A stretch of 64,000 bases of DNA. Origin: Chaetoceros tenuissimus (lineage: Eukaryota; Bacillariophyta; Thalassiosirophyceae; Chaetocerotales; Chaetocerotaceae). Positions 8,421-28,332 of this stretch are shown here, one piece after another; within the stretch, counting starts at the first letter, position 1; each line of letters starts with the position of its first letter. Below the pieces are notes generated by a model. The model searched no databases, was not told where the DNA came from, and was given only the letters and a program-made list of their open reading frames with translations. The translations under genes were made by a program, and so were the position numbers. Location: contig BLLK01000022.1 in assembly GCA_021927905.1 (NCBI GenBank), forward strand, positions 1,364,001 through 1,428,000, read 5' to 3'.

Positions 8421-8556
8421 GATGCAGTTTATGTGAGATGAGAGTAGAAAGCGATAGAAGAAGTTGCGGAATGCAGTTTTTGTAGTGAAGCTCGTCCACA
8501 CTATTGTATGCTAGGATGGCATCCAGAACTGAGTCTTGAATAATCTGAACGGAAAT

Positions 8557-9051
8557 GTGGTTACCACCACTGCCATTCGTCACTTTCTCTTCTAGTGTCT
8601 ATAGCTAATTTATAAGAGCATTGGCGAAAATTGATGTTTACTAGGAAACCTCAACCATGCCGCCAAGGTAAGATGCATTTGAGAATCATCTTGCCAAGGC
8701 GGGGGTGGGTGGGAGAGGCTTTTTAATTTTTCTATCTTATCTACTAAGCGTGAATTAAGAAACAACTGAGAACAACCATTAGGTAGTTGTTTCCTTTCAA
8801 CATTCAAGTGTTGCTGGTGATGAAGAATATCTCGTTGAGGGGTACACGTGGATGTACATTGAAGGATGATAACCTGGTGTCTAACCCCTCTACGAGACGT
8901 TCCACATTTGCCGTGGTTACCACCACTGCCATTCGTCACTTTCTCTTCTAGTGTCTATAGCTAATTTATAAGAGCATTGGCGAAAATTGATGTTTACTAG
9001 GAAACCTCAACCATGCCGCCAAGGTAAGATGCATTTGAGAATCATCTTGCC
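8557..9051 (-). repeat. Split direct repeats, downstream block of the DIRS-like element
   Basis: The block is A (8557-8695), a G-rich spacer, B (8719-8918) and A again (8913-9051); A and B overlap by GTGGTT. B recurs at the other end of the element (14469-14668). In this class the internal block serves as template for completing the ends through a circular intermediate. Confidence 0.85.
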
Positions 9052-9079
9052 TGCCACCAAAGCCATAGACGGGTGGGGT

Positions 9080-10249
9080 TTAAAAGAGAGGGACTTCTTG
9101 GTTTGGAATTAAGGTGAAATTGCCACCAGTCAGCATGCGTTGACTGAAGTGTTGCATAAGTTGAGAATTTTGCAGATGTAGGTATCGTAGCATTTCATCA
9201 GATCTCCAGCGTCCAAGAAGACGGATGACATCAGAATCGACATTTGCGCACAGCAGAGCATTTGCACCAGCAGCTCGCAAGCAGCGTGCGCTAACATCGG
9301 ATGGAAGGAAACCAAGGGCGGGACCAAGAGCAGCAACATTTGTGCGAAGAGTGTTTGTTATATCAGATGGACAAACATGCACAAGACGTTGTCGTTCTTG
9401 GCAAAAATATGTACACAGTGGTGTATTTGGTGCAGCGTTATGCTGTTTCAAATGAATGACTCTACGTGCCAGCGCTTTGACTGGACAGAGGTAGAATTCT
9501 CCACTGCATGAGAGTCCAATGACTTCTCCACGAACTCCATTCTTTTGCGTAGTGAATGTTAATGAAACAAAAGTGGCTTGACGGAGTTGTGTGGGTGTAG
9601 CTGTCATTGTATTGAGTCGCTGATGGCCAATCCAAAATTGAACATCAGCAAGAAGAAAGGGATCACTATCGGTGTTGGAGTAAGAATATTCTCCAGGACG
9701 AAGAAGAAAGAAGAAAGCAATGATTATCATGTCGGCTGTGGCATGTTGATTGAAGCTGTTGCCAGAGAAAGCAATTTGTGCAATTCGACGGATGACTGAA
9801 AGAGGAACTGGCTTCACTCTATTTGGAGGCGGGTCCTTTTTCTTGTAAGACTTGATCATCCTTGCCAAACGAAAATCAATGTTATCATGACAATTTAGTC
9901 TTGGGTCCTGTTCACCCAATTCAAGGTACGTCTGTCCAATGCTCCGTAGGTAATCTTCAGCTGATCGAGCGCGTATTGGATTCTTGTTGGCTGCATAGAA
10001 TCCGTGTCGTACTCTGTGGAGGAAGACTTGTAGGTACGGTACTTTGTCCTCGACGGTTTGGAGTAAGGGATCTTGGCCCAGGACACTTGTGAACTCAATC
10101 CACTTTTCCCAGTGTGTGTCAGAGGCGGCGGAACGTCCAGTAGTAACTCCTTGTCGAACTTCTTGTTCCGCAAAGCCGAGATCACGCCAGAAATCAGCTT
10201 TTGTGTCGGGTGCACAATTTTGAAGGTGTATTTCTGTTTGAATTTGGAA
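9080..10249 (-). CDS. Tyrosine recombinase of the DIRS-like element
   Basis: The frame is open from about 10249 and overlaps the end of the reverse-transcriptase ORF by about 350 bp in another frame, an overlap known in DIRS elements. The N-terminal part resembles a SAM-like core-binding domain (SDTHWEKWIEFTSVLG) and the C-terminal part carries the catalytic region, with CLRAAGANALLCANV and LLGRWRSDEMLRYLH holding candidate Arg and Tyr residues. It would integrate the cDNA circle. The true start is uncertain because the upstream part has no clear ATG. Confidence 0.8.
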   Translation of the reverse strand, partial: FQIQTEIHLQNCAPDTKADFWRDLGFAEQEVRQGVTTGRSAASDTHWEKWIEFTSVLGQDPLLQTVEDKVPYLQVFLHRVRHGFYAANKNPIRARSAEDYLRSIGQTYLELGEQDPRLNCHDNIDFRLARMIKSYKKKDPPPNRVKPVPLSVIRRIAQIAFSGNSFNQHATADMIIIAFFFLLRPGEYSYSNTDSDPFLLADVQFWIGHQRLNTMTATPTQLRQATFVSLTFTTQKNGVRGEVIGLSCSGEFYLCPVKALARRVIHLKQHNAAPNTPLCTYFCQERQRLVHVCPSDITNTLRTNVAALGPALGFLPSDVSARCLRAAGANALLCANVDSDVIRLLGRWRSDEMLRYLHLQNSQLMQHFSQRMLTGGNFTLIPNQEVPLF

Positions 10250-12369
10250 TTAAAGTGAGTGAGAAGTTCGCAATTGGATAAATGGAATAAACGAGAAGAG
10301 TCATCAGCAAGAGGATTGGATGGTCCGGAGATGTAATCATGCCTAGGAACGTATCTATGAAAGCGCTGATGAATTCCAAAGAGTCTCAAGAGTTGATGTG
10401 TTACTGCTGCATTTGTTGCACTTCCTTTCCTTTCCCAGAAGAGAGTAGCCAGATTATCCGTCTTGCTGACCAGTGTCCTTTCTCGAACATCCAAACAATG
10501 TGCTATCACATCCAAGTGTAGTAATCCTCCAGCTAATTCTAAATCGGAATTTGTAATCTTTCCTTGAGGATTGTCTTCAGTGACCAAGTCATCAATGATG
10601 TCTTGAGGCCACTTGTATCTCCACAGTAACGGATGCAATGTGTTTTTGTTTTTCATACGACTTCCAATTGTGTGAGAAGGGAACCAAACACCGCCTGCTC
10701 CTTCACCTGACGCATCATGAAAGCCTAAAGCTGATGGTAAAAGTGGCACTAGCTCGGCAATACGAGTTGGTCTCTTTGAAATGTCTTTGAGCATCCATTG
10801 AAAATCTGCAATCGATTGATGTACACCCTTCCGCAAAGAAATTCGACTTCTCTTATCCAACGATCGCAACGCTTCTTGCATCATTCCAAACATACATCTT
10901 GCACCAGGTAGTGCTAAAGCCATAGACCGCAATTCACCAAGAAGCTTATGCCATTTCTTGACACCTATGCGTTTCTGTGTTGAGGGAATACTCGATAGAA
11001 TGGCGCCAAGTCTTTCCTGACGATGCTGTGGAAGCTCAATGGTCATTGCTACTGTATTTATGATCCACCCAAGCACTAGCTTGATTGTGCTCCAAGAGCA
11101 ATCTCCCTTTCTCAACTTTTTGAGTGACACTGGTTCGCGTCTGTGTTCACTGTCATAGAAGTCATTGGGACGGAACACTGTATCAATTGCGTGTAACAAT
11201 GTGTCTCGGACGTAATTTCGATTACCAGTTTGTGCAAGGGCAATGAAGTCATCAACAAATACGTCGATATACTGTAGTAATGTCATAGGGAAGGGTAGAG
11301 ACGGATCTCTAACAGTAGGAATATCAGTTTGTGATAGTGATGAATTCAGCGTGGTAGCTGAAACAAATGGGGGCTGCAGCGCAGTAGCTGTAGCAGTTGG
11401 GGGTGATATTGGGCCATCCATAGGTGCAGCATGTTTAGAAAGTGGATGAGCTGCAGAAGGACTTCCAGCTTGTAGTGAACGATTGGCTAGGTCAGCAATT
11501 GTTTCAGTGGCAGTACAGAACGCTGGAGGAGAATTCTTCCAGCCCATTGGCAATACTAGTGGAAAGGCTACAAGGTTGTTGTGTGTTGCAGAAGGGAAGG
11601 TCACTCCCAGCTTGGGTATATCGTCAATGTTGAGGCACAACCGATAAAAGCCATCGGATAAGTCTACCTTCATAAGCTGGACTGGTCCATGATTGGGATT
11701 GGAAAGCAATATTTCGCGAAGTATTCTATCCAAAGCATGACCAAATTGCATGGAATCCAAGACCAGTGGCAACGTGTCTTCATTTATATTGTAGAAGCTA
11801 TAATCGACAATCCATCTAGGTCTTCTCTCGCGTTGTGGAACAACTCCAGGTGGTGATAGGCGTAGGTTTGGCAATGACTGAACGTCTTCGAATGGCAGGA
11901 TGATCCACTGCCCTTTCTGCATCATATCCACAAACTCTTCCTCCAGAAAATCAAGATACTCGAAGCAAGACCGATGACTGCCTCTTTGCAGCGCTTCATC
12001 AATACGTTCTTTGCTCCACGGCTTGGTTTTGAAACGAACTGGAACTCCTCTCTTTCTGTACTGGTTCAGTACATGACCAGCAGGATGATTTATATTTGTA
12101 GTTGCTAAGTCGACTCTGCCTCTTTTAATCTGTATGAACTTTCTCCAACCCACTTTCCTAAACAAATCAGCATCCGATTCAATTAACTTACCAATATCAC
12201 GGTGATGTGGAAGTTTAGTGTTTTTTACACTAGTTTCCACATTCACCTTGATGCGTTTTGCATCGTTATTTGATGGGGGTTTTGTTTGAAGGGGGTTGGT
12301 TGGCGAGACCGAAGGAATAGGAATAGAAGTAAGGGTAACTGGGCTTAAATTAGGCGCTACACTATTCAA
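9895..12369 (-). CDS. Reverse transcriptase / RNase H of the DIRS-like element
   Basis: An 824-residue ORF. The polymerase palm motifs include KVDLSDGFYRLCL and the YxDD-type YIDVFVDDFIAL. An RNase H-like region follows (LGFHDASGEGAGGVW and TLVSKTDNLATL). No integrase or protease domain is visible. It lies 18 bp downstream of the gag ORF in element order, and its C-terminal end overlaps the recombinase frame. Confidence 0.85.
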   Translation of the reverse strand: MNSVAPNLSPVTLTSIPIPSVSPTNPLQTKPPSNNDAKRIKVNVETSVKNTKLPHHRDIGKLIESDADLFRKVGWRKFIQIKRGRVDLATTNINHPAGHVLNQYRKRGVPVRFKTKPWSKERIDEALQRGSHRSCFEYLDFLEEEFVDMMQKGQWIILPFEDVQSLPNLRLSPPGVVPQRERRPRWIVDYSFYNINEDTLPLVLDSMQFGHALDRILREILLSNPNHGPVQLMKVDLSDGFYRLCLNIDDIPKLGVTFPSATHNNLVAFPLVLPMGWKNSPPAFCTATETIADLANRSLQAGSPSAAHPLSKHAAPMDGPISPPTATATALQPPFVSATTLNSSLSQTDIPTVRDPSLPFPMTLLQYIDVFVDDFIALAQTGNRNYVRDTLLHAIDTVFRPNDFYDSEHRREPVSLKKLRKGDCSWSTIKLVLGWIINTVAMTIELPQHRQERLGAILSSIPSTQKRIGVKKWHKLLGELRSMALALPGARCMFGMMQEALRSLDKRSRISLRKGVHQSIADFQWMLKDISKRPTRIAELVPLLPSALGFHDASGEGAGGVWFPSHTIGSRMKNKNTLHPLLWRYKWPQDIIDDLVTEDNPQGKITNSDLELAGGLLHLDVIAHCLDVRERTLVSKTDNLATLFWERKGSATNAAVTHQLLRLFGIHQRFHRYVPRHDYISGPSNPLADDSSRLFHLSNCELLTHFNSKFKQKYTFKIVHPTQKLISGVISALRNKKFDKELLLDVPPPLTHTGKSGLSSQVSWAKIPYSKPSRTKYRTYKSSSTEYDTDSMQPTRIQYALDQLKITYGALDRRTLNWVNRTQD

Positions 12370-12387
12370 TTCCTTCCAGCCAAGTTT

Positions 12388-14430
12388 TCACTGGTGAGGC
12401 CAGTGCTCCGAGCACAACTGCACCATCGGTGCATATTGGCTGGCAGAATAAGGGACATGATCATAAGAAGAGTTGCAACCTTCATTGCAGGTACCCTTCA
12501 CATGGTAAGCAAGGCACATCGTCTTGTTGGAGTCTACACGGGATTTGGGCAACTCTAATCCTGCTGCTAACCATCTAGATCTTACATCTCTAGCTCGCAT
12601 GGATCTATCCTCTCTGTATTGGTTGAATAGGTCGGCATTGAAGGTAGGATTTGTGATAGTACGGTTTCCTCCAGGTGTGGCTCTGCTATCACTGTCATCA
12701 CGTCCTTGCAATCCTCCAGTAGTAAGTGAAGGTGATGGATTTACATTGGTTAATCCCAACTGCTCCAGAAAATGAGATCCCATGACTGGCTCCCATTGCT
12801 GATGCAGACGAATGGATTGGAAAACTCCATGTGTATTCAGAGTGGGAAGATCTGCAGGCTGAACATTTGGGTAAGAAGCCATATCGAACCAATAATCTAT
12901 CTCCGTCTGCAGTTTGAACTGAAGCCGAGGCCAAAAGAGGAGTCTGCCATTCAATTCACAACCCGCTTGATACATCTGAAGCTCTACCTGCTTCTGGTTT
13001 AACATACGATAATAAGTAGCAAGATTGGTTGTTACCGGATGTGCACCTCCCCAGAGGCACTGATGATAGATGAGATATTTCTGAATCAGGTGCAAATAGC
13101 TGACAGTATCCGTGGAGGCCTTGATGTCCAAACCTGAGATGAGCTGAAGGTCCGCAGCCGAAGGTGCTGCTCCACCCGAGTGTAACGTTTCGTACAAAGT
13201 AGCTTGCTGTACTACGCTGGAATTGCTGGTATCAAGAAGGAAGGAATTAAAATATTCCTTAAAGTCACCTGCAGCGGAGGCTGAGTGGAATTGCAGATTC
13301 AAGATTTTCTCCAAGATCCCTGGAGTGGTATCAACTTTCACATAGGTGAGATGCAACTGCTGTTTGGCGAGTTCCAAGTGCTGGCTGAGGATTCTGATCC
13401 GATCCCCCTTTTTAGACCTAGCCAACTGGTTCCAAACAGGTTGCAATAAGTTTCCATTTTGGACTTGTGCATAAGTAAGAAGTTTGTCATACGACGCTGG
13501 ATACTCCGACTGGAAAGTCTTGTTCCTTGCCCTATCCCTTTCCTGTTGACTCTCGATTCTTCCCAAATGTACCTCTTGTGTCAAGGCATGAATGCCTTGG
13601 CTCACTAGCGTAGCTTGTGCGTGTCCAACCGCGTTGTTAAAATGGGGAAAATCCTCATACAGAAGTCTTCTACGATGTGCAATCAAATCCGGATCCAAGG
13701 CTACTACAGTAGGTAGATCTTCAGAGTCTAGAGCCAGATGTGATAAATCATTAGGTGTAGGACGACTCATGCATGCTCTCAGATAATTAATCAGTGGTTC
13801 ACATTGCTGTTCCAATTGATCAGTGACGATGGCTCCTCTCAGAGTAGTCCAGAGTTCCTTAGGTGTGTGTGGACGATCTATTACCAATGGTACATATGCA
13901 TGTGGCACTAAGCAGCAATACCTTGTACGGATAAGCTCAACATTAGGGTCATTGGCTTGAAATGGGCCGAAAAGTTCGTCATCGGGATCCGCCGCGATCA
14001 AGTTGTCCAGTTGAGCCGCAGTTGGCACCAACATGTTATTGGACTGATGATACATGGAACGAGGCCAAATCGCTAATGAGAACTGTTGCTCCATCAAATC
14101 TCCAATTTGAATAAAAATTTCACCGTCATGAGGAGTAGCTCTAATGGGAGAAGCAGTGTAGGTTGCTGGGTTGATGTAGGCATGAATCTTCTCTGAATCT
14201 TCATGGTATACTATGAAGCAGTGTGTCACGGCTGGTTGGCCTTGTCTACCAGATAACGCAGTTTCTTCTACTTGGACAGGTGTAAAGTTATTGAAGTCAG
14301 TGTACGGAGCAAGTAGGGTCTGAACATGTCCATCCATAGTGTTGTTCGTAGCATCGCTGAAAAGGTCGAAGTAAGTTGTTGTTGGCGCAGCGGGCGCTGC
14401 CGGAATGGCTCCTTGTCCAGCATGAGCCAT
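12388..14430 (-). CDS. Gag-like ORF of the DIRS-like element
   Basis: A 680-residue ORF, first in element order. Most of it has no motif I recognise, but it ends with a CCCH-like zinc-binding stretch (CLAYHVKGTCNEGC, then H), a position typical of nucleic-acid-binding gag tails. A closely related fragment occurs in the ORF at 25205. The start ATG at 14430 lies just inside the left terminal repeat. Confidence 0.75.
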   Translation of the reverse strand: MAHAGQGAIPAAPAAPTTTYFDLFSDATNNTMDGHVQTLLAPYTDFNNFTPVQVEETALSGRQGQPAVTHCFIVYHEDSEKIHAYINPATYTASPIRATPHDGEIFIQIGDLMEQQFSLAIWPRSMYHQSNNMLVPTAAQLDNLIAADPDDELFGPFQANDPNVELIRTRYCCLVPHAYVPLVIDRPHTPKELWTTLRGAIVTDQLEQQCEPLINYLRACMSRPTPNDLSHLALDSEDLPTVVALDPDLIAHRRRLLYEDFPHFNNAVGHAQATLVSQGIHALTQEVHLGRIESQQERDRARNKTFQSEYPASYDKLLTYAQVQNGNLLQPVWNQLARSKKGDRIRILSQHLELAKQQLHLTYVKVDTTPGILEKILNLQFHSASAAGDFKEYFNSFLLDTSNSSVVQQATLYETLHSGGAAPSAADLQLISGLDIKASTDTVSYLHLIQKYLIYHQCLWGGAHPVTTNLATYYRMLNQKQVELQMYQAGCELNGRLLFWPRLQFKLQTEIDYWFDMASYPNVQPADLPTLNTHGVFQSIRLHQQWEPVMGSHFLEQLGLTNVNPSPSLTTGGLQGRDDSDSRATPGGNRTITNPTFNADLFNQYREDRSMRARDVRSRWLAAGLELPKSRVDSNKTMCLAYHVKGTCNEGCNSSYDHVPYSASQYAPMVQLCSEHWPHQ

Positions 14431-14468
14431 GGTAGAAGTGTGAGCTGCGGTGATGAACAGGTATTCAC

Positions 14469-14668
14469 CTTTTTAATTTTTCTATCTTATCTACTAAGCG
14501 TGAATTAAGAAACAACTGAGAACAACCATTAGGTAGTTGTTTCCTTTCAACATTCAAGTGTTGCTGGTGATGAAGAATATCTCGTTGAGGGGTACACGTG
14601 GATGTACATTGAAGGATGATAACCTGGTGTCTAACCCCTCTACGAGACGTTCCACATTTGCCGTGGTT
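14469..14668 (-). repeat. Left terminal repeat of the DIRS-like element
   Basis: These 200 bp look identical by eye to 8719-8918, including the terminal GTGGTT. The identity points to a recent insertion. Confidence 0.85.
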
Positions 14669-17425: not shown

Positions 17426-18697
17426 CTGAGAACTTTCAACATCTTAATATAAGTTCAAATTTTGAGAGGGTGGATCTTCTACAGATTTCAAACTTGCTTG
17501 CTTTTTCCTTGTGGAATCAGAAATGGATATACTAGATACCTCCAGCATTGGAAGATTTGAAATCACCATTCTCTTCTCTTCCAACGCTTCCCCTGGATGC
17601 AAAACTACCAACTTGAATCTCGCTCTCATAGATAGACTCTGATTCTCATCTTTTCCTTTCAAGATCTCCATTTTGTGATAAAAGAATATCAACATATTCC
17701 AGAATCCTTGCAATGGCTGAAAGAAGAGACGCAAGGCAGCGAGTACTGGAATATCCTTGATGCCATCTTCTCTATCAGATAGCATACCATAAACAACAGG
17801 GAATATCCAAATAACAAAGAAAGAAGCAATATACATCAAGGCTTCTTTTGTGATTCTTCTCTTGTCTCTTCTGGTCTCGCTTAATTCGCCGTCCGTAAAT
17901 TCATCTCTGTCAGCCACAGCAGTGGTGTCATGTTCTTCCTTTAGTTCTTTCAACTTCCGCTCCGCACGATAGAAGGAGAAGATAATTAGGCACATGTCAA
18001 CAATTAGAACTGCAAAAGTTGCTAGCGTTAATGAAATCCAAACGACGGCAAAGCTTTTATGCAGTCCACCTTTTCCCTCGCTACAATCAGGATCTGTGTC
18101 CTTTGTACATTTATCTGGATAATCTCTTCTGGTGCACCAAACAATAGATGGACTAGGATTGAGGCTCTCTCTATTATAATAGAAAATAGGAGAAATTGAA
18201 AGAAGCACGATTAAAAAAAGTGTTGGTGTTTCAATCCATTTACGGAATGTAACATCTTTCATATGAAACACTAATGAGCAGCCGTAATAAATGTACAAAA
18301 CCAAGCTCATCCCCAGTGCAATCCCGCATCCGCCTATAAATGCATATGCTTGTGCATTGCATGTACGAATGTTTCCATAGGAACTCTGTGCGAATGGATA
18401 TATCACATCTCTCGGCATCGGAATCGTTGTCAAAGCTATTGCAAGTGACATGAAGCAGTCACCTATGCTCATACCGAACATGATCCGATGATAAGGTGTG
18501 GAAAAAACTAGCTTTGGACTCTTGAGGATGACATATATAATCAGCATCGACGAAATGAATGATATGGAGCCAGATACTGTAGGGATAATGATTGCCGGCT
18601 TTGTGAAGTTAAAGTTGGTATTGGAGTCCATCTTGTTCCTTGTTTTTAGTACGGACGTGAAAAGAGCTATCTTGCTTGGAATAAAAATTGAATTCAA
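17219..18697 (-). CDS. GPCR-like seven-transmembrane receptor
   Basis: Exon 1 (18697-17483) and exon 2 (17425-17219) are joined by a 57-bp GT-AG intron, giving 473 residues. Without splicing the frame ends just after the donor, whereas splicing leads in frame into the Ser-rich tail repeated downstream. Seven hydrophobic segments are visible, starting with IIIPTVSGSISFISSMLIIY and including YAFIGGCGIALGMSLVLYIY and MYIASFFVIWIFPVVYGML. Two cysteines between TM4 and TM5 and a Lys/Glu-rich loop between TM5 and TM6 fit a plasma-membrane receptor of the cAMP-receptor or secretin-like type common in diatoms; the ligand is unknown. The start may instead be the ATG at 18631 (MDSNTNFNF), which puts TM1 nearer the N-terminus. 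Confidence 0.8.
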
Positions 18698-18824
18698 GTC
18701 AAAGTACCTCTAGGCATTCGCACACGGTTCCACGAGAACCACTCGTTGCTGCTGGTCTAGCCTGATGTGATAACATCAGCTGGAGACAGCTGGCAGACAG
18801 CACACTATCGCATCGACGAAATTA

Positions 18825-18849
18825 CGGCAACCGGCCTGCTGGTGTGGAC
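18825..18849 (+). repeat. Left terminal inverted repeat of the DNA transposon
   Basis: It begins CGGCAACCGGCC and continues to GGTGTGGA, followed by CCTTTTAAAAATATG. It is flanked on the left by AAATTA. The reverse complement of the right end matches it at 20 of 25 positions. Confidence 0.8.
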
Positions 18850-18876
18850 CCTTTTAAAAATATGTAAATAATGTCA

Positions 18877-18924
18877 AAATAGCTATTAAAAAGCTTGTAG
18901 ACACCTGCTTTTTAATAGCTATTT
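18877..18924. other. 18-bp perfect hairpin in the transposon leader
   Basis: The arms AAATAGCTATTAAAAAGC (18877-18894) and its exact complement (18907-18924) are separated by 12 bases. It lies between the left TIR and the transposase ORF. It could be a subterminal binding site or an RNA structure. Confidence 0.7.
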
Positions 18925-19077
18925 CAGTGTTATTTTAATTCAACGTGTAGGTACTAATATAGTATGTACTAAAAGGTGCTGCACCTTGAGCCACGACGAG
19001 ATGAACACTGAACTTGACTGAACCTAATTAACACCTGATACCTTTAGTGCATTTCACTTGTCTTTATTTACTATAAC

Positions 19078-22000
19078 ATGGCAAAATCCAAACGTAAATA
19101 TGTTTCTAAAACCCTAAACTCAAACAAGGGCAAAACTACGTCAGCAGCAAAGGCAGCAAAAACCTATAAGAAAGCGACTGAGACAAGAGTACTTGCTAGA
19201 GGTCTAGCTAATTTTGTTCAGCATGGAACCATTAGGAATATTATTGAATCACCTCGAGTGATGATAGAGAGAATGTGGAATGAGTTCCGTAGACGTGATG
19301 CAAACTATGAAGTCCGTAGACCAACTCATACAAATAATGATGACTACTACGATGTGAAAGAAAGCACTAGAACTGAAGACGAATTAAATCAAGATGATGG
19401 TGATGACGATGGTGATGGCTCTTCTTTTGAAGAAGATTCAAGCTACTTCGATGATATCAAAATTAGTGTCATGCATAAATATGCAAAAAGCATAGTTGAA
19501 AGACTCGCTGTTGAATGCAATACAGCTGATCCTATCAAAAGCGAAGAAAAGTGGTTACTTTCCTATTTAAAAATGCATAATTTCTGGATTCGTAAAGATA
19601 CAGCTGAATACATATGCCAAAATTTAGGGATTGAATTCAACCTAGTTGGATATTATAGAGACATTCTTATGTGGCTCCCAGATGAACAGTATGGAATCGA
19701 CCCCATATGTCCAACGTGCAAGAGCAACAAGCGTATTGGTGTGCATGGATATCTAGATCTTGAGAAGACACCATGTAGGAAAGTTATTGACATTGCGGAT
19801 TGGTATTGCATAGCTGGACGTAGATATAAATGTCATGAGTGCATGCAAGAAAAGCGGGAACCATATACATTCATGTCCTATGATAAAGACTCCGTGAAGC
19901 AATTGCCACGGCGACTTTCTTTTTCGTTCCCAGCATTTCTAACAAAAGGATGCGCTTTTGATATGAAGATTGTAGATCTAATGAGACCAATACGAGATGC
20001 AAATGTTTCATTTACAAGGTTCCGTGACATTATTGAAGAAATGCATGCAGTAGAACATTGCAAAAGAGCAATTTTACATGAGCATAGTCGTGATGATAGA
20101 GCTGACTTGAGCGAGAGACATCTCCGCAAATTTTCACATTTTCGTGATAAGACAGAATATGATGGATATGTACCTGGTAGAAGAGTATTCAGGAGTACTT
20201 ATCTTGAAATGCACAATGAGATTCGCTCTCACTTAGATGCTGAAACAAAGAAGCATGGAATAAAAGTTGGCTATGCAGATGCCACTTATAGAGCCATGAA
20301 ACGACTTGGATGTTTTAATGGACAGAAGCTTGTAGATTGTCTTGTTACTATTAAGAATGAATATGGTGTGGCACGCGCTCAATTTGCTTCACCAAGTGAT
20401 GCTAAGGATAATTACGCAAGACCACTTGAAAATATGGTGGACACGTTTAATCAGTACGGTTTTAGTGGACCGTCGTGGATATATGTAGATAATCCACTTC
20501 AAAGCGGATGGCTGATAGAACTGTTTCCATCGCTAGGAAAGAAGCAAAAAGAGTATGACAAATTGTATGAGACTGAACAAGGCAAAGCTAATGACTATAA
20601 TAATGATAATAGTGAATGCGTTGAAAGTATCATACAAAATGAAGATGATGAATTTTTCGATGCAGACATGGACAATGTTGCAGACGACAATGCTGATGAC
20701 GATGGATTCTATGACGCAAACGATGGAGAGGATGATTGTGACTTCAATTTTGATCATTGGTTTCAAGAGTCTTGTCATTACTCAAACACAATAGGAGATA
20801 TAAACCAACGTGCAGAAAAAGTCATTGGTCATCTTGGGTTGAATAGTGACAATACTGATCCGATAGTCATAGGTCTTGACGGCGAATGGTTTGTACCGAC
20901 AAATAGGGAAGGAAAGCCTTGTGGGAAGCCATGGAAAATTAGTCTTATCCAAATAGCTTATTTGTATGATCATCGAAACGAAAATAGAATTGAATATAAA
21001 AATGTCCGATGTGAATTATTTCATTTGAATCATAGTTGGAAGGTTCTACCAGAGAAGTTAAATGAATTGTTGATGAACAAACGGATACAATTTGCTGGAT
21101 GCCAAGTTAGCGGTGATATTTCGAAGATAAACAAAGACTTTCGCAGTAACATTGAGTGTAGCGAAAGAACGATACGTAACTTAGCACCAATGGCACAGGC
21201 ACGTGGAATACAATTATGTGGAAAGGGTTTGGATTCTCTTGCTCCAGTTGTACTACAAAAAGAATGTACAAAAGAATTGCAATTATCTGACTGGAAATGG
21301 AGACAAGATAAAATATTATCTATTGAGTTGCAAAAGTATGCCGCAAGGGATGCATTGTACTCAAAGATGTGCGATGTGGAATTAGAAAAATATGAAGATC
21401 TTACAATCCCCTTGAAACCAGAAATGATTGTTCCAGACATGGTTGTTGATTTGGCGCCATATTATACATCAAACTTATCAGTTCGTGACCAAGCTTCAGT
21501 AGGTGCGATTGCCAAAATAGTTCCTAACCAAGAATCTTGGGTGGTGCCATCGATTCTACATACAAGCAGTAATGTTGCAAGGGGTCTAGAACCAGGACGA
21601 TTCCTGATTGAGCTTACTGATATCAAAGCACCAGCTTTGAAAGTAAAAGATATGCTGGTCAAAGGTACCAATAGATTTGTGACACTTGGAGAAATTGGAG
21701 TTGGGAAGCACGTGATGGTACCCATCGAAATGATACGTGAGCATAATCCAAATCGAAATGCCATTGCATTGAATACAAAGGATCAGTCAAGAATAGCAAA
21801 ACGCAAAGTTACCAAGAAAGCGGGATCAAGACATGTCACGAAAAGACGCCGGAATAGGAAGAATACTACAGCTGATATCTTTGATGTTGATAGAGCTATG
21901 GATAGAAATGATCAAGTTGTAGAAGAAGGAGATCCTCTACATACATTTGAAGAGTCAGATTTCGACTGGGATTCTTTAAGACTTGAAGATATTGACACAA

Positions 22001-23727
22001 TCGAGAAATGTTTGGAATTGGCAAAAGATCATAAGATGGCTTTGCCAGGTCGAGATAGTGCCAATTGTCAAAACGAAAGTTATCTGGATGTTCCGCCAGA
22101 CAAAATATTTGATCGATTCAGTTCATTATTGGGATCTCCTTTTCATGCAATACATCGTTTTAAGTTGATGATGAAGCATTCACATCGGAAAGCGTTCTAC
22201 GTAGCCTTATCCGAAGCTTTCTTCCAATGGAGTGAGCAAGATTTGGCGTTTCTTGAAGCAAAGCTAGCAGAAAAAAAGGGCATGGACAGGAAAGCAATAT
22301 ATCTTTGTAGATATTTCAAACGTAAATACTTTTCAAAAAGATGTCGAAGGATTTGTCTACCCCCATCACGGTTGTATTGGAGAATTCGAAATGTCTTTGA
22401 AATATTTGGCTCAAAGTGTGATGTAGATACAGGAAAACCATTGTTTAGTGATGGTGATTGGGTAAAAGCAAATACTATTTTGAAGGAAGTGTTACATGGA
22501 TATTACTCTGATCCCCCTGGATTGAATCTTTATCAATTTGAGTTGACAAATAAAGGTGAAATCAAGTATGATTTGCTCCTACAAGTTCCGCTATTGAGAT
22601 GTAAACGAGATACAAATGCTCTAGAGGGATCACATTCACATATTAATAATGCATTTGGACCGTCGGCATGTGGGCCAGAAATAGCTGATGCAATATTAGC
22701 AGAACATCGACATCGCTCAAATTTGCGTGCATGTCAAAAGAATCTTTCGAACTTTCCTAAGATTGGACATTATAATACATGGATGATAGATGCCCATGTT
22801 AAGGTGTATGAACGGAATCATAATGAGCTTTTGTATCCAACGTGGATTTGTGCTTCTGACTTTGCACCTACAGAAGAAAAGTTTGGTTTCGTATCACTCG
22901 TTGGTAAAGAACTCGAAAAAGAAATAAATGACACTGTCAAGGTTAGAGATGATAAAATGACACCTACGGCAAAATACTTATCTAAAGCATGTGGAATGGT
23001 AGTACACCCAAGACCATGGTCGACAGAGTACGAATGTAAGTGCTTGTATCAAAAGTTGTTTACCGAAGCAACCAAGATTCATAAGAACATGGACAAAGTT
23101 GATGAGCTAATGACTCGGCTTATTTTAAAACATGTCGATGGCGTGAAGGTCTTTCCCAAGACTAAAGCGTACAATCGCATCTATCGCAAGCGTCGTAAAC
23201 ATTATGAAACATTGCAAAAAGCTTCAAGATTGATGGCTAGGGACGAGACGCTCTTACATTCGGTTAATATACTTACTGCTCATCAAAAACAAGGATATGA
23301 AAAGCCAACAGCAGAAGCGTCTTCTGATGTAGACATGAATACAGAGGATGTTAATGCCGAAGAATCTACTCTGGATAAGTTTGTTACGGATAACTTTGGA
23401 ACGATCCAGAAACAGGATGCACCTAAAGAGCGACAGACAATGAAAAGAGTAAATCATCTCAATTTTGTTCATCCAGCATTTCCGCAATTTGCTGGTTTAT
23501 ATCAAGTGAATATGATTCAAGCAGCGAATCATATTTCATATCAAGCACCTCGGCATGAAAGAAATTTGGTGCTACCAGTACGTGGACCAGATAAGATTTG
23601 TGTTCGTCAAGAAAGGAAATGTAAGAATTGTAAGAAAGGTAAATCGGATGGATGTAGAGGCGGTTCTACAAGAAGACCGAGAAACCAACCACAGCGGTAT
23701 TGTGACACTCACCAGTGCTATTTTTAA
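19078..23727 (+). CDS. Large transposase-like protein with internal DEDDy 3'-5' exonuclease domain
   Basis: A single 1549-residue ORF. The basic N-terminus is followed by a Cys cluster at about 210-258 (CPTCKSNKRIGVHGY, CHEC). A probable RNase H-like DDE core follows: D401 in VGYADATYRAMK, D471 in WIYVDNP and E1183 in NALEGSHSHINNAFG. Between the second Asp and the Glu sits a complete exonuclease domain at about 585-790. It has D601 and E603 in VIGLDGEW, D680 in QVSGDISKINKDF, and Y754 and D758 in KYAARDALYS, which is the DEDDy set of RNase D and WRN-type exonucleases, with the family LSDWKW motif. The C-terminus holds a second Cys-rich basic cluster (CKNCKKGKSDGC). Acidic spacers occur at about 95-125 and 520-560. 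By context it moves the surrounding transposon. The exonuclease is well supported; the DDE assignment is inferred from motif order. Confidence 0.8.
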   Translation: MAKSKRKYVSKTLNSNKGKTTSAAKAAKTYKKATETRVLARGLANFVQHGTIRNIIESPRVMIERMWNEFRRRDANYEVRRPTHTNNDDYYDVKESTRTEDELNQDDGDDDGDGSSFEEDSSYFDDIKISVMHKYAKSIVERLAVECNTADPIKSEEKWLLSYLKMHNFWIRKDTAEYICQNLGIEFNLVGYYRDILMWLPDEQYGIDPICPTCKSNKRIGVHGYLDLEKTPCRKVIDIADWYCIAGRRYKCHECMQEKREPYTFMSYDKDSVKQLPRRLSFSFPAFLTKGCAFDMKIVDLMRPIRDANVSFTRFRDIIEEMHAVEHCKRAILHEHSRDDRADLSERHLRKFSHFRDKTEYDGYVPGRRVFRSTYLEMHNEIRSHLDAETKKHGIKVGYADATYRAMKRLGCFNGQKLVDCLVTIKNEYGVARAQFASPSDAKDNYARPLENMVDTFNQYGFSGPSWIYVDNPLQSGWLIELFPSLGKKQKEYDKLYETEQGKANDYNNDNSECVESIIQNEDDEFFDADMDNVADDNADDDGFYDANDGEDDCDFNFDHWFQESCHYSNTIGDINQRAEKVIGHLGLNSDNTDPIVIGLDGEWFVPTNREGKPCGKPWKISLIQIAYLYDHRNENRIEYKNVRCELFHLNHSWKVLPEKLNELLMNKRIQFAGCQVSGDISKINKDFRSNIECSERTIRNLAPMAQARGIQLCGKGLDSLAPVVLQKECTKELQLSDWKWRQDKILSIELQKYAARDALYSKMCDVELEKYEDLTIPLKPEMIVPDMVVDLAPYYTSNLSVRDQASVGAIAKIVPNQESWVVPSILHTSSNVARGLEPGRFLIELTDIKAPALKVKDMLVKGTNRFVTLGEIGVGKHVMVPIEMIREHNPNRNAIALNTKDQSRIAKRKVTKKAGSRHVTKRRRNRKNTTADIFDVDRAMDRNDQVVEEGDPLHTFEESDFDWDSLRLEDIDTIEKCLELAKDHKMALPGRDSANCQNESYLDVPPDKIFDRFSSLLGSPFHAIHRFKLMMKHSHRKAFYVALSEAFFQWSEQDLAFLEAKLAEKKGMDRKAIYLCRYFKRKYFSKRCRRICLPPSRLYWRIRNVFEIFGSKCDVDTGKPLFSDGDWVKANTILKEVLHGYYSDPPGLNLYQFELTNKGEIKYDLLLQVPLLRCKRDTNALEGSHSHINNAFGPSACGPEIADAILAEHRHRSNLRACQKNLSNFPKIGHYNTWMIDAHVKVYERNHNELLYPTWICASDFAPTEEKFGFVSLVGKELEKEINDTVKVRDDKMTPTAKYLSKACGMVVHPRPWSTEYECKCLYQKLFTEATKIHKNMDKVDELMTRLILKHVDGVKVFPKTKAYNRIYRKRRKHYETLQKASRLMARDETLLHSVNILTAHQKQGYEKPTAEASSDVDMNTEDVNAEESTLDKFVTDNFGTIQKQDAPKERQTMKRVNHLNFVHPAFPQFAGLYQVNMIQAANHISYQAPRHERNLVLPVRGPDKICVRQERKCKNCKKGKSDGCRGGSTRRPRNQPQRYCDTHQCYF

Positions 23728-24470
23728 ATCAAATAATAAGAGCATGTAATCATGAAACACTCATTATTTCTTTTCCTTCATTTTTTTCCGCTTCTAGGCC
23801 TATTCCAGAGATTTTTATGAGAAGTACAGCAACGGTCAAAAATTGAAATGCCATTGAACAACAGCGAGTACATGAACATAACGAACTTCTCACTCATTGC
23901 ATAATCCAAGTCGCTTTTTCCGACTCTCTTCCGCTATGCAATGCATAACATTCATGAACAGTTACTGAATATGCTCCTAAAATGATTTCGTCGTGTCCAT
24001 ATTTCAGAGACCTAGAAGGATACGAGATGCTAGCATGAAGATATGACCTCTGATCCTAGTTGCACAAGGAAAGATACGGAGGAAAGATATGGACTCTATC
24101 AGGAACCTTTCTGCTTAAAAGCCACTGCTGTCTACTACTGATTCTCTCTATTGGTGTTGGTGGATACAAAAAGCTAGACTCACTTGTCGTCATGTGTGGC
24201 ATTGTCAGATTGTTTCTCGAGGAGATTGTGAATACCGACAGCCCAGTCAAGTCATTTTGAGGAGAAAAGATTTGTGCATAATATAGATATATCGTAAAAT
24301 AAAATGCATTGGCTCATGGTATCTTGTTGATTGAATCAACATCGAAGAAAGATTCCATGAGTTCAATTGTTTTTGTCATGGCCTCCCTCCCGTACGTTGA
24401 AATATTTTTCAGTGACAATTTTCGACGACTCGTGTCATAAAGCTAAAATCATATTTATATTTTAAAAAAA
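23728..24470. other. Non-coding right arm of the DNA transposon
   Basis: About 740 bp between the transposase stop and the right TIR. Only short frames without recognisable content are present (for example around 24060-24260). I see no tandem repeat or second gene. Confidence 0.6.
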
Positions 24471-24495
24471 CTCCACACCTGTGGGTCGGTTGCCG
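24471..24495 (-). repeat. Right terminal inverted repeat of the DNA transposon
   Basis: It ends ...GGTCGGTTGCCG, the inverted counterpart of the left end, and is followed by the AAATTA duplication at 24496-24501. Confidence 0.8.
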
Positions 24496-24501
24496 AAATT
24501 A

Positions 24502-25204
24502 CTTATGGCTGATTGGCTATCTCTCTCGACGACTGAAGCGACTGGCTTGCTTTGTGCAATTAGACGGCTGCACTACATGGTGCTCTAACAACGAAGAATG
24601 CTTGCAAATAAATAAAACTTGGACCACATAGATTGATAGTTATCAATTTTTGGACCAAAAGCTCTAAGTTGAAAGTGTTGTTCTGCCTGAGAAAGATTGA
24701 GTAGTAGTCCTAAGATTACCGTGCTCTACAGTAAAGCTTGTACTCGTACATAAGCTTTTGAGTAATCATTTTGTGACCAAACAGCAAGAACGACATTATA
24801 TGTAACGGTTGATACTGGTAATTGATCGTATCATATTTTACATTTTGAAGTTGCTAATCATTTGTTTGTTCTATTCAAGTTGATTCAAGCTACTCAAAGT
24901 ATTATCTCAATAAGTAAAAAACTTTTATATTGATTTTAAAAAGATGATAAAGTTCAAAATAAATGAAATCGCTTTGATTCGCGAGCGTCATACATGTATC
25001 AGATACGAGTAAGGTAAAGGCCATTTCAAGATGTCACAACATCACGAACTCAACAAACTCGTTTGTTCCAAGTGGTTCCAAGAATTCGCGAGAAGAAAAA
25101 GTCTCTTGCGAACAACATATCAAACACAAAGAAATATTCTTTTTGCTTCATAAATTAAATATATTGTAAAGACAACATACTAGTTCTCAAGAAATAAGAA
25201 AATC
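24502..25204. other. Intergenic region, nothing recognised
   Basis: Seven hundred AT-rich bases between the transposon and the ORF at 25205, which presumably include that ORF's promoter. No repeat, RNA gene or sizeable frame was recognised. Confidence 0.5.
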
Positions 25205-27007
25205 ATGGCGATTACAAAGAACGACAGTACAAGCAAAGAAGGACTCGATGATGAATACGATACTTGTGATTATGTAAACATTGCATCTGCAATACCAGTC
25301 CCCAACCCAAATACGAGCGAAGTATCTGGAACGACTGGTGATAATTATTCATTCACGCCTTCTGAAACTGGTGTCGACTACAACCAATATCCTCAGCATG
25401 ATTCAACCAAAGAAGATTCTACAAAATATCAAAACTCCAATCAAATTGGTGCGGGAGTAGTGGCAGCTGTGATTGCGATGCCTCTATTGGGACCAGTCTT
25501 CGCTACGGCAGCGGGAGTTGCTGCTGCCTATGGCACTACTCAGGATGGACCAGCTGGTGATGCTTGTAGAGCAGCGGGCGATGTAGCTCTCATTGCGATA
25601 GATCGCCCACACACACCAAAGGAACTTTGGACTACTTTGAGAGGAGCAATTGTCAATGATGGAGTAGAGCAAGCATGTGAACCGCTCACAAATTACCTAC
25701 AAGCATGTATGAGTCGCCCTGCTCCCCATGATTTATCCCATCTTGCATTGGATTCTGATGATTTACCAACAGTTGTGGCCCTTGACCCAGACTTAATTGC
25801 CCATCGCAGACGACTCTTGTACGAAGACTTTCCACACTTTAATAATTCCGTCGGACATACACAGGCGACATTGGTGAGCCAAGGCATTCATGCCTTGACT
25901 CAGGAGGTGCATTTAGGGAGAATCCAAACTCAGCAGGAAAGAGATAGAGCCAGAAATAAAACATATCAATCGGAATACCCTGCATCTTATCAGAGACTTC
26001 TTAGTTACGCCCAAGTCCAAAACGGAAACTTGTTGCAACCAGTGTGGAATCAGTTGGCACGTGCCAAAAAGGGTGATCGGATCAGGATCCTCCACCAGCA
26101 CTTGGAATTAGCCAAGCAACAATTACAGCTAACTTATGTCAAGGTAGATACTACCCCAGGTATATTGGAGAAGTTCTTCAACTTACAATACCACTCTGCT
26201 TCAGCTACTGGAAATTTCAAGGAGTATTTCAATTCTTTCCTGCTAGACACCAGTAACTCCAGTGTGGTGCAACAAGCAACCTTGTATGAAACTCTACACT
26301 CTGGAGGAGCAGCACCTTCAGCTGCGGATCTACAGTTGATATCCGACCTGGATATAAAAGCCTCCACTGATACTGTTAGCTACTTGTACCTCATACAAAA
26401 GTACCTGATCTACCATCAATGCCTCTGGGGAGGTGCGCATCCAGTGACCACAAGTCTTGCTACTTATTATCGCATGCTGAATCAAAAACAGGTGGAACTC
26501 CAAATGTATCAGTCTGGCTGCAAAATGAATGATAGACTACTCTTTTGGCCTCGCCTCCAGTTCAATTTGCAGACTGAAATTGACTATTGGTTCGACATGG
26601 CTTCCTATCCTAATGTTCAGCCTGCTGACCTTCCAACATTGAATACACATGGAGTCTTCCAAGCCATTCGTCTACACAACCAGTGGGAGCCAATCATGGG
26701 ATCGCACTATCTAGAGCAGTTGGGGTTGAAAACTGTCTACCCATCACCTGCTCCTGCTGTGGGGGGATTGCAAGGACGTGACGACAGTGACAGCAGAGAT
26801 CAACCTGCAGAGAACCGTACCATCACCAATCCCACTTTCAATGCTGACCTATTTAATCAATACAGAGAGGATAGAACCATGCCAGCTCGCGAGTTGAAAC
26901 ATTTCAACCTCATGCTTCGGGCTTGGGACAATGCCTCACAACAAGCGAAGGAGAAAGCTCTGAAAGATGGCACCCTCAGCACCAAGGAAGGAAAGCGTTG
27001 GGAATAA
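25205..27007 (+). CDS. Chimeric ORF: host-like N-terminus fused to a gag fossil
   Basis: A 600-residue uninterrupted ORF. Residues 1-130 have no counterpart in the retroelement: an acidic stretch, then a Gly/Ala-rich hydrophobic segment (GAGVVAAVIAMPLLGPVFAT, then AAYGTTQDGPAGDACRAAGD) of a kind common in diatom proteins of unknown role. From about residue 132 to 565 the protein follows the gag-like ORF of the element at 12388-14430 closely, beginning at RPHTPKELWTTLRGAI and ending near FNQYREDRTM. The last 35 residues (AWDNASQQAKEKALKDGT) are again non-element and look host-like. No element ends are seen. It is a fossil segment carried in frame inside a host-like ORF; whether it is expressed is unknown. 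Confidence 0.55.
   Translation: MAITKNDSTSKEGLDDEYDTCDYVNIASAIPVPNPNTSEVSGTTGDNYSFTPSETGVDYNQYPQHDSTKEDSTKYQNSNQIGAGVVAAVIAMPLLGPVFATAAGVAAAYGTTQDGPAGDACRAAGDVALIAIDRPHTPKELWTTLRGAIVNDGVEQACEPLTNYLQACMSRPAPHDLSHLALDSDDLPTVVALDPDLIAHRRRLLYEDFPHFNNSVGHTQATLVSQGIHALTQEVHLGRIQTQQERDRARNKTYQSEYPASYQRLLSYAQVQNGNLLQPVWNQLARAKKGDRIRILHQHLELAKQQLQLTYVKVDTTPGILEKFFNLQYHSASATGNFKEYFNSFLLDTSNSSVVQQATLYETLHSGGAAPSAADLQLISDLDIKASTDTVSYLYLIQKYLIYHQCLWGGAHPVTTSLATYYRMLNQKQVELQMYQSGCKMNDRLLFWPRLQFNLQTEIDYWFDMASYPNVQPADLPTLNTHGVFQAIRLHNQWEPIMGSHYLEQLGLKTVYPSPAPAVGGLQGRDDSDSRDQPAENRTITNPTFNADLFNQYREDRTMPARELKHFNLMLRAWDNASQQAKEKALKDGTLSTKEGKRWE
25597..26893 (+). mobile_element. Gag fragment of a DIRS-order element (fossil)
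   Basis: This segment is collinear with about 13893-12600 (minus) of the whole element. Base differences are many but mostly silent. It is a partial copy without repeats or ends, and clearly older or from a sister lineage. Confidence 0.75.
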
Positions 27008-27327: not shown

Positions 27328-28332
27328 ATGGCCAGAATCAACTTTAAAAGTTCAACAGAGAAAGAACACCATGAGTTGGTGTCAGAACTAAAGGCACTAA
27401 AGGATACCGTCAAGGAGTTGTTGGAGAAAATAGATAAAGTACCGTACCTACAAGTCTTCCTCCACAGAGTACGACACGGATTCTATGCAGCAAACAAGAA
27501 TCCAATAAGCGCTCGATCAGCTGAAGATTACATACGGAGCATTGGACAGACGTACCTTGAATTGGGTGAGCAAGACCCAAGGTTAAACTTTCATGATAAC
27601 CTTGACTTTCGTTTGGCAAGGATGATCAAGTCTTACAAAAAAAAGGACCCTCCTCCTAATAGAGTAAAGCATGTTCCTCTTTCAGTAATCCGTCGCATCG
27701 TGCAAATTGCTTTCTCTGGCAACAGCTTCAATCAACATGCCACAGCCGACATGATAATCATTGCCTTTTTCTTTCTTCTTCATCCTGGAGAATATTCTTT
27801 CTCCAACACCGATAGTGACCGGACTCTTTTCGAAAAGAAAGTTGTTGTTTCAAGTGATGAAACTACTCTGGACCTGACAGAAGTACCTCTCCGTCGTAAA
27901 TCAAAAGCTAGAAAATACATGAGAGGTAAAGTCCTTCAAAAGGTGTCCGTTTACTCTATTCGAAAGTTGGTATGGTTGAAAAAGTGTTTCAAAAAGAGAA
28001 AGAACCTCAAGAGACTGTACGAGGTTGTAGATGATGCATATACTACTGACCTGTGCGAGTCCACCATTTCCAATGAGAATGAGAATGTCATGGAATCCTC
28101 TCAAGAATGCAAGTCTACAAAAGAGATTCTTGAGCTTCTTGGAGATGCATATCAGGTAAACCATGACCATATCCTCAAAGCTCATGCGTGCATCATTGAT
28201 CAAGCAAATACAATCAAGAATCTACGCATGGAAGTAGCAAATATCTCGAATGCAAATGTATGTACCACTTCTTCTTCCAATGGAGATTCATTCTTTTCAG
28301 CTTTTGACGATGGTTTTTCCATTGATGCATGA
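27328..28332 (+). CDS. Chimeric ORF: host-like coiled protein carrying a recombinase fossil
   Basis: A 334-residue ORF. Residues 1-40 are charged and helical (EHHELVSELKALKDTVKELL). Residues 41-165 match the N-terminal half of the recombinase of the element at 9080-10249 (YLQVFLHRVRHGFYAANKNP ... FFFLLHPGEYSFSNTDSD). The remaining 170 residues do not resemble the element: a Lys/Arg-rich block (RRKSKARKYMRGKV, KKCFKKRKNLKRLY), then an acidic and helical C-terminus. The catalytic half of the recombinase is absent, so no integration function is expected. The two non-element ends may derive from one host gene. An upstream exon is possible. Confidence 0.5.
   Translation: MARINFKSSTEKEHHELVSELKALKDTVKELLEKIDKVPYLQVFLHRVRHGFYAANKNPISARSAEDYIRSIGQTYLELGEQDPRLNFHDNLDFRLARMIKSYKKKDPPPNRVKHVPLSVIRRIVQIAFSGNSFNQHATADMIIIAFFFLLHPGEYSFSNTDSDRTLFEKKVVVSSDETTLDLTEVPLRRKSKARKYMRGKVLQKVSVYSIRKLVWLKKCFKKRKNLKRLYEVVDDAYTTDLCESTISNENENVMESSQECKSTKEILELLGDAYQVNHDHILKAHACIIDQANTIKNLRMEVANISNANVCTTSSSNGDSFFSAFDDGFSIDA
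27440..27817 (+). mobile_element. Recombinase fragment of a DIRS-order element (fossil)
   Basis: Collinear with about 10045-9665 (minus) of the whole element, up to AACACCGATAGTGA, where similarity stops abruptly. It is a partial copy in the same orientation as the gag fragment 550 bp upstream, so both may stem from one insertion that has lost its middle and ends. Confidence 0.7.

Follow-up and report, generated by a model that had tools for sequence, protein, structure and literature searches.

A 64,000-nucleotide stretch of the genome of the diatom Chaetoceros tenuissimus (contig BLLK01000022.1, positions 1,364,001 to 1,428,000 of the forward strand; hereafter the window) contains an intact DNA transposon of 5669 base pairs (bp) at window positions 18826-24494. 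This element has moved, has definable ends flanked by an 8-bp target-site duplication, encodes its transposase in a single open reading frame (ORF) in which the residues of a DEDDy exonuclease are intact, and is conserved in five families of the same genome. We consider it probable that the element is an autonomous, recently active DDE-type DNA transposon whose nearest kin is the exonuclease-bearing branch of the Dada superfamily, and that it moves by the mechanism proposed below. The inserted exonuclease and its proposed role are not new, having been known since 2013: the available part of Kojima & Jurka 2013 (PMC3706591) describes Dada elements of Laccaria and Ectocarpus in which a DEDDy exonuclease is placed after the second Asp and before the DxxH motif, and suggests that it processes cleaved 3' ends. 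The first-pass annotation, made from the sequence alone, held that the element fits no common superfamily and that its nuclease could trim ends; that publication speaks against the former and had already proposed the latter. What our analysis adds, for three families of a single genome, are the ends, the duplication and the type of target of a Dada-like transposon that bears an exonuclease.

Ends and target-site duplication

The left terminal inverted repeat (TIR; 18826-18872, plus strand, inverted repeat I1) starts with GGCAACCGGCCTGCTGGTGTGGA and pairs with the right one (24448-24494, minus strand), which ends in CGGTTGCC. This pairing is imperfect, extending over 53 nucleotides (nt) at 75% complementarity with 19 of the 24 outer bases matching, while, of the 318 position pairs flanked by a common exact 8-mer, the runner-up reaches 12 of 24. 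Two motifs are shared across families, GGCAA (bases 1-5) and GTGGA (bases 19-23), and both are present in 6/6 ends of the C16 (window), C59 and C36 families. Just inside the left end lies a subterminal inverted repeat with 29-nt arms and a 12-nt loop (18866-18935, plus strand, inverted repeat I2), which is found in all 10 of the left ends listed.

The element is flanked by an identical 8-mer, GAAATTAC, on the left (18818-18825) and on the right (24495-24502), and other copies have different 8-bp duplications in the same placement relative to GGCAA. We scored the length of the duplication outward from GGCAA, over lengths of 4 to 12 bp, in 11 elements with both ends. Copies C1 and C29, whose right end has lost its final 20 nt, and the sequences at C17, C57 and C21, of which only the right-end region was matched, were left out. 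A perfect 8-bp duplication flanks 7/11 elements (C16a, which is the window copy, C16b, C13, the C58 dimer, C59, C32d and C29x), while none of the remaining lengths between 4 and 12 bp gives a perfect duplication in any of them; a length of 3 bp fits one (C38). The remainder are near misses, with 7/8 bases matching at the C38 dimer, 6/8 at C39, a one-base slip at C36 (GAAATTC/GAAAATTC), and 8/8 at C34d with one extra G before the left end. This last copy is a deleted derivative (L060/L067, C34:151514-153852) in which the extra G stands between the exact 8-bp duplication and the left end, a single imprecise end. The terminal GGCAA is intact at 22/22 outer ends of the 11 elements, the C34d left end with its extra G included, a count that carries selection as the elements were chosen for having GGCAA-type ends. 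Insertion sites are mostly AT-rich.

These results bear out the first-pass annotation in recognising a DNA transposon with TIRs, and correct it on where they begin and on the duplication. It had placed the TIR start at CGGCAACCG; similarity among the other copies begins at the second base of that repeat, and the true start, GGCAACCG, is therefore one base further in. The 6-bp duplication that it proposed, AAATTA, is rejected because the bases beyond those six match too and because the C before GGCAA is not kept elsewhere: only 2 of the 7 elements with a perfect duplication (C16a and C16b) have it, so that the extra C belongs to the duplication and not to the TIR. Since C16a, C16b and C36 sit at G-(A/T)6-C sites, a longer TIR and a shorter duplication were seen at first.

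Copies and families in the genome

Searching the 41-Mb assembly (68 contigs) with the transposase yielded at least 32 matches, four of them full-length at about 100% identity. The element is young and recently mobile. The window copy and C16b both have the two ends, differ at 2 of 5669 bases and occupy different sites with different 8-bp duplications. The C1 and C29 copies retain full ORFs, and their flanking loci are alike at 3250/3250 and 3281/3282 letters; the loss at their right end could be a trimming accident or a later deletion, and represents one event only. There are also six units with internal deletions (C13, C39, two at C38 and two at C58), among which the main deletion takes five different forms; they would fit gap repair after excision. 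The units at C38 (L006, L007, L015) and C58 (L012, L013, L014, L019) form dimers. Three further sequences, L051 (C17), L052 (C57) and L053 (C21), match the element's right-end region at 74-90% identity, and may be older copies or short non-autonomous relatives.

The exonuclease sits in the same position in five divergent families of this genome, that of the window included. Identity to the window protein is 38%, 36% and 30% in the full-length proteins of C59 (L008), C36 (L010) and C34 (L017), respectively; the fifth family, C23 (L056), is cut by a contig end and broken near the first Asp, and its exonuclease residues are present. The ORFs are uninterrupted in four families. TIRs, an 8-bp duplication, the ORF and both domains occur together, as had been anticipated for a 6-bp duplication, in three families (C16, C59 and C36, the last with its one-base slip), all of them in this genome. 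For C34 (L017), no ends were found within about 1.8 kb upstream or 1.9 kb downstream. Beyond this genome, the collections scanned were viral or prokaryotic only, and gave pattern matches but no relative by tblastn. The Pfam model PF20499, which matches the N-terminal part of the protein, was matched in 0/14 control genomes, and an NCBIfam search gave no match.

The transposase and its exonuclease

The transposase is encoded by one uninterrupted ORF of 1549 residues (19078-23727, plus strand, as are all features of the protein given below) that takes up most of the element, and frames about 100% identical to it are open at three other places. It contains a DEDDy 3'-5' exonuclease at residues about 594-770 (20857-21387), whose residues D601, E603, D680, Y754 and D758 are invariant in all four full-length family proteins. 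The exonuclease is WRN-like by sequence profile and by fold, with a profile match to PDB chain 2fbt at E 7e-24 and a Foldseek match to 2e6l at E 3.5e-8 (TM-score, the template modelling score, 0.78 by target length). Both the length of the ORF and the complete exonuclease between the second Asp and the Glu are as the first-pass annotation described them.

Upstream lies a DUF6729 domain (residues 192-336, 19651-20085; PF20499, E 8.9e-18), whose C211, C214, C252 and C255 are invariant in 4/4 proteins and which is presumed to be an N-terminal zinc-binding region; DUF6729 and the Pfam exonuclease model DNA_pol_A_exo1 are found in all four. The exonuclease is followed by a conserved region of mixed helix and strand (residues 771-895, 21388-21762), which in the other three full-length families shows 27-43% identity to its counterpart in the window protein and which is modelled by AlphaFold with moderate confidence. 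At the C-terminus, a cluster of C1515, C1518, C1526 and C1542 (23620-23703) is likewise invariant in 4/4.

The candidate catalytic residues of a DDE site are D401 (20278-20280), D471 (20488-20490) and E1183 (22624-22626), the last within DTNALEGSH; all three are invariant in 4/4. Alignments place SPFH, at residues 1020-1023 (22135-22146), as the counterpart of the C/DxxH motif: H1023 is invariant in 4/4, position 1020 is Ser in three proteins and Asp in one, and DxxH occurs in the C34, C23 and C32 proteins, as DPFH in C23 and C32. Invariance, the mobility of the element, the spacing of the two Asp and a likeness to IS256 together lead us to infer that D401, D471 and E1183 form the catalytic site. 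That spacing is 70 residues here and 68 in Dada-U6_DR according to the available part of PMC3706591, and the likeness, seen by eye, is a TN-x-x-E-like motif at E1183, whose Asn is kept in C36 and C32 and is not in C59 and C34. From the numbers of Asp, Glu and Tyr that are invariant in the window protein, the chance that a random set of the same composition would be invariant throughout is about 0.003 for the DDE set and 0.0001 for the DEDDy set, both rough figures for residues chosen by motif. Identity to the window protein is 27-43% in the block of the two Asp, 31-46% in the exonuclease and 36-48% in the block from His to Glu, and 17-25% in the two linkers; the exonuclease is thus conserved about as well as the proposed catalytic blocks, and the linkers are not.

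Proposed mechanism

We propose that the transposase binds the GGCAA...GTGGA ends and cuts the element out at GGCAA, probably by cut-and-paste rather than copying, and that the 3' ends of the element would then be joined, with a stagger of 8 bp, to target DNA that is mostly AT-rich. The predicted activity of the exonuclease would most likely remove 3' strands left exposed on the donor flanks, or 3' ends that are misplaced, with the element's own 3' ends shielded by the complex. If the exonuclease acts in this way those ends must be shielded, since GGCAA is kept at every outer end scored.

Several points weigh against a Dada-like DDE transposon working in this manner. Those Dada elements whose ends can be defined have no TIRs and subterminal inverted repeats only, with duplications of 6-7 bp and targets in small nuclear RNA or transfer RNA (tRNA) genes, according to the available part of PMC3706591. 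Here, TIRs occur in three families, 6 and 7 bp are perfect in none of the 11 elements against seven for 8 bp, and no RNA gene was found at the sites. Specifically, no tRNA was found in the window or in 16 stretches covering 10 loci, by a bacterial-type finder that may miss intron-bearing tRNAs, and no Rfam match reached the gathering score in 16 stretches covering 9 loci; these scans left out the C32d, C34d and C29x flanks, and gave one sub-threshold chance match, inside the element. The suggested kinship with Dada is one of architecture, and the exonuclease activity is predicted.

The DDE assignment has its own difficulties. The three residues proposed by the first-pass annotation are invariant, as noted, and their meeting in an RNase H fold is not confirmed: in both AlphaFold models the predicted local distance difference test (pLDDT) is below 50 in the proposed DDE parts. 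The model of residues 180-1300 (9 alignment rows) has a mean pLDDT of 48.6, with only the exonuclease and the region following it confident, and that of residues 180-500 (6 rows) a mean of 35.7; near residues 421-460 a strand-strand-helix order is weakly predicted, which is in keeping with an RNase H fold and proves nothing. Comparison by hhalign with five IS256 transposases, on thin alignments, gave no match (probabilities of 0.8 to 11%), the 11% alignment covering another portion of IS256. Among Pfam models, none for a transposase was hit by the window protein (E up to 10) or by the four proteins (E up to 1), with HMMER filters that remove most matches above E 0.1.

Alternative explanations

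One alternative places the element in a superfamily apart from Dada and nearer to hAT, P or Mutator, which would have gained a WRN-like exonuclease independently and at the same place as Dada. TIRs and 8-bp duplications suit hAT, P or Mutator better than Dada, and the TN-x-x-E motif resembles IS256 by eye. We nevertheless think such independent gain unlikely, as common descent is indicated by the site of insertion, which is that reported for Dada, and by the Cys clusters at either end of the protein. No Pfam model of hAT, P, MULE or KDZ matched, within the E limits just given; this holds for the hAT transposase and dimerisation domains and for the KDZ model PF18758 with the window protein at E up to 10, and membership of KDZ, hAT or MULE by Pfam is rejected.

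The exonuclease might instead act elsewhere than on transposition intermediates, for example on RNA or on host repair substrates. The DEDDy group includes RNA enzymes, and homologues of RRP6/EXOSC10 and MUT-7 are among the weaker profile matches, with RRP6 found by Foldseek also. The best matches, however, are to the WRN exonuclease both in sequence and in fold, and in all five families seen the proposed catalytic blocks enclose the domain; we therefore give this possibility little weight.

A further possibility is that the element transposes by way of a circular or head-to-tail intermediate, as IS256 does, and not by simple excision; this could account for the head-to-tail dimers at C38 and C58, both of which have the 6-nt linker TTTCTT between their units. 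This linker is the same as the final 6 nt of the left flank at C38, and the available part of PMC3299598 names IS256 among the families that use minicircles. A genome-wide pattern search found only these two TTTCTT junctions, and none with a reversed control pattern. The dimers could, however, stem from recombination between duplications, and tandem Dada copies separated by a duplication have also been reported (PMC3706591, available part). They could also descend from one ancestral dimer that moved later: both b units share a one-base deletion, which is also present in C13, and the perfect 8-bp duplication around the C58 dimer suggests that it moved as one unit. Seven variants are common to the C38 units, whereas the C58 units differ in their deletions. 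The dimers may go back to a single ancestral dimer that underwent gene conversion later, or to separate circle-like junctions, and a circle as the regular route seems to us distinctly improbable.

Finally, the shared flanks of C1 and C29 mean that segmental duplication (or the presence of two assembly haplotypes) does occur, but a host gene family spread in that way has practically no chance of being the explanation, as unrelated flanks and copy-specific 8-bp duplications exactly at the matching TIRs reject it.

Neighbouring features

To the left of the transposon, a minus-strand ORF resembling a G-protein-coupled receptor (17444-18697; Pfam GPR_Gpa2_C, E 1.2e-5) begins 128 bp from its left end. 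Further left lies a 6.1-kb element (8556-14663, minus strand) with a 99.8% identical copy at positions 1075-7182 of L078 (C29:344300-353400), the latter inside a TIR element with C36-like ends. This 6.1-kb element has three ORFs of 680, 824 and 279 amino acids, and by eye looks like a DIRS-type retroelement with a reverse transcriptase and a tyrosine recombinase; its three ORFs in the window had no Pfam match. To the right of the transposon, an ORF at 25205-27007 resembles by eye the first ORF of this retroelement, and 386 bp at 27433-27818 are 92.7% identical to it.

Comparison with known systems

Among other superfamilies, Zisupton has an 8-bp duplication, and the Zisupton/KDZ group resembles the present element in its large transposase. 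We know of no such inserted exonuclease in hAT, P, Mutator or IS256. In the available part of PMC3706591, duplications of about 8 bp are given for hAT and P, as found here, and a C/DxxH motif between the second Asp and the Glu for hAT, P and Mutator/IS256. The closest parallel outside Dada is KolobokD (PMC9587614, available part), a eukaryotic DDE transposon with a 3'-5' DnaQ-type exonuclease proposed, as here, to act on DNA intermediates. Its exonuclease is of the DEDDh (TREX-like) type, unlike the DEDDy exonuclease of our element, and Kolobok makes 4-bp TTAA duplications, which do not occur here; exonucleases in such transposons thus recur.

A TIR-bearing Dada with 8-bp duplications and an exonuclease is not described in the available parts of PMC3706591, PMC8869645 and PMC9587614, Repbase Reports and most subscription journals having been outside the search. 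As far as available, a 2022 paper on fish again gives Dada duplications of 6-7 bp and nowhere uses the word exonuclease, and a paper on Ectocarpus repeats lists one Dada family with 15 copies and mentions no exonuclease. DEDDy exonucleases are mentioned only in rotifer retroelements in the available parts of PMC6431247 and PMC5718144, PMC12730594 and PMC9297572 mention neither Dada nor an exonuclease, and the literature searched has no mention of DUF6729.

It is in its layout that the element matches the account of Dada (PMC3706591, available in part, as for all that follows on Dada). From the N-terminal Cys4 to the C-terminal Cys cluster, the order, with candidate catalytic residues, is Asp, Asp, exonuclease, S/DxxH and Glu, and the same order of Asp, Asp, DEDDy exonuclease, DxxH and Glu is reported for Dada-1_LB and Dada-2_LB of Laccaria bicolor and Dada-1_ES of Ectocarpus siliculosus, which also have the N-terminal Cys4, C-terminal zinc-finger regions and intact exonuclease catalytic residues. 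The exonuclease thus lies between the second Asp and the DxxH motif as in the exonuclease-bearing Dada. The likeness extends to the presumed N-terminal CCCC zinc finger, with a spacing of C-x2-C here and C-x4-C in Dada-U6_DR; at the C-terminus, where Dada has a CCHC finger, four invariant Cys are present here, the third position being Cys and not His. Dada outside Perkinsus has introns, unlike the uninterrupted ORF found here, and Perkinsus Dada is also intronless, so that this difference is not decisive. Wherever the termini of a Dada can be clearly defined, the element sits in a small RNA gene, and neither ends nor target are given for the Laccaria and Ectocarpus families, whose names, lacking a target, suggest that their ends were not settled.

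These comparisons raise a bolder possibility, which we regard as rather doubtful: that the exonuclease-bearing elements may be a separate lineage, marked by GGCAA TIRs and 8-bp duplications and without RNA-gene targeting, and that animal and Perkinsus Dada may derive from such a hAT/P-like ancestor by loss of TIRs and gain of RNA-gene specificity. The exonuclease in cis would then be a working part of excision, possibly with head-to-tail junctions. The clean ends and near-identical copies of the window element make a test of the function of an exonuclease within a transposase possible. Overall, the element calls into question whether absent TIRs, duplications of 6-7 bp and RNA-gene targeting define the whole of the Dada group.

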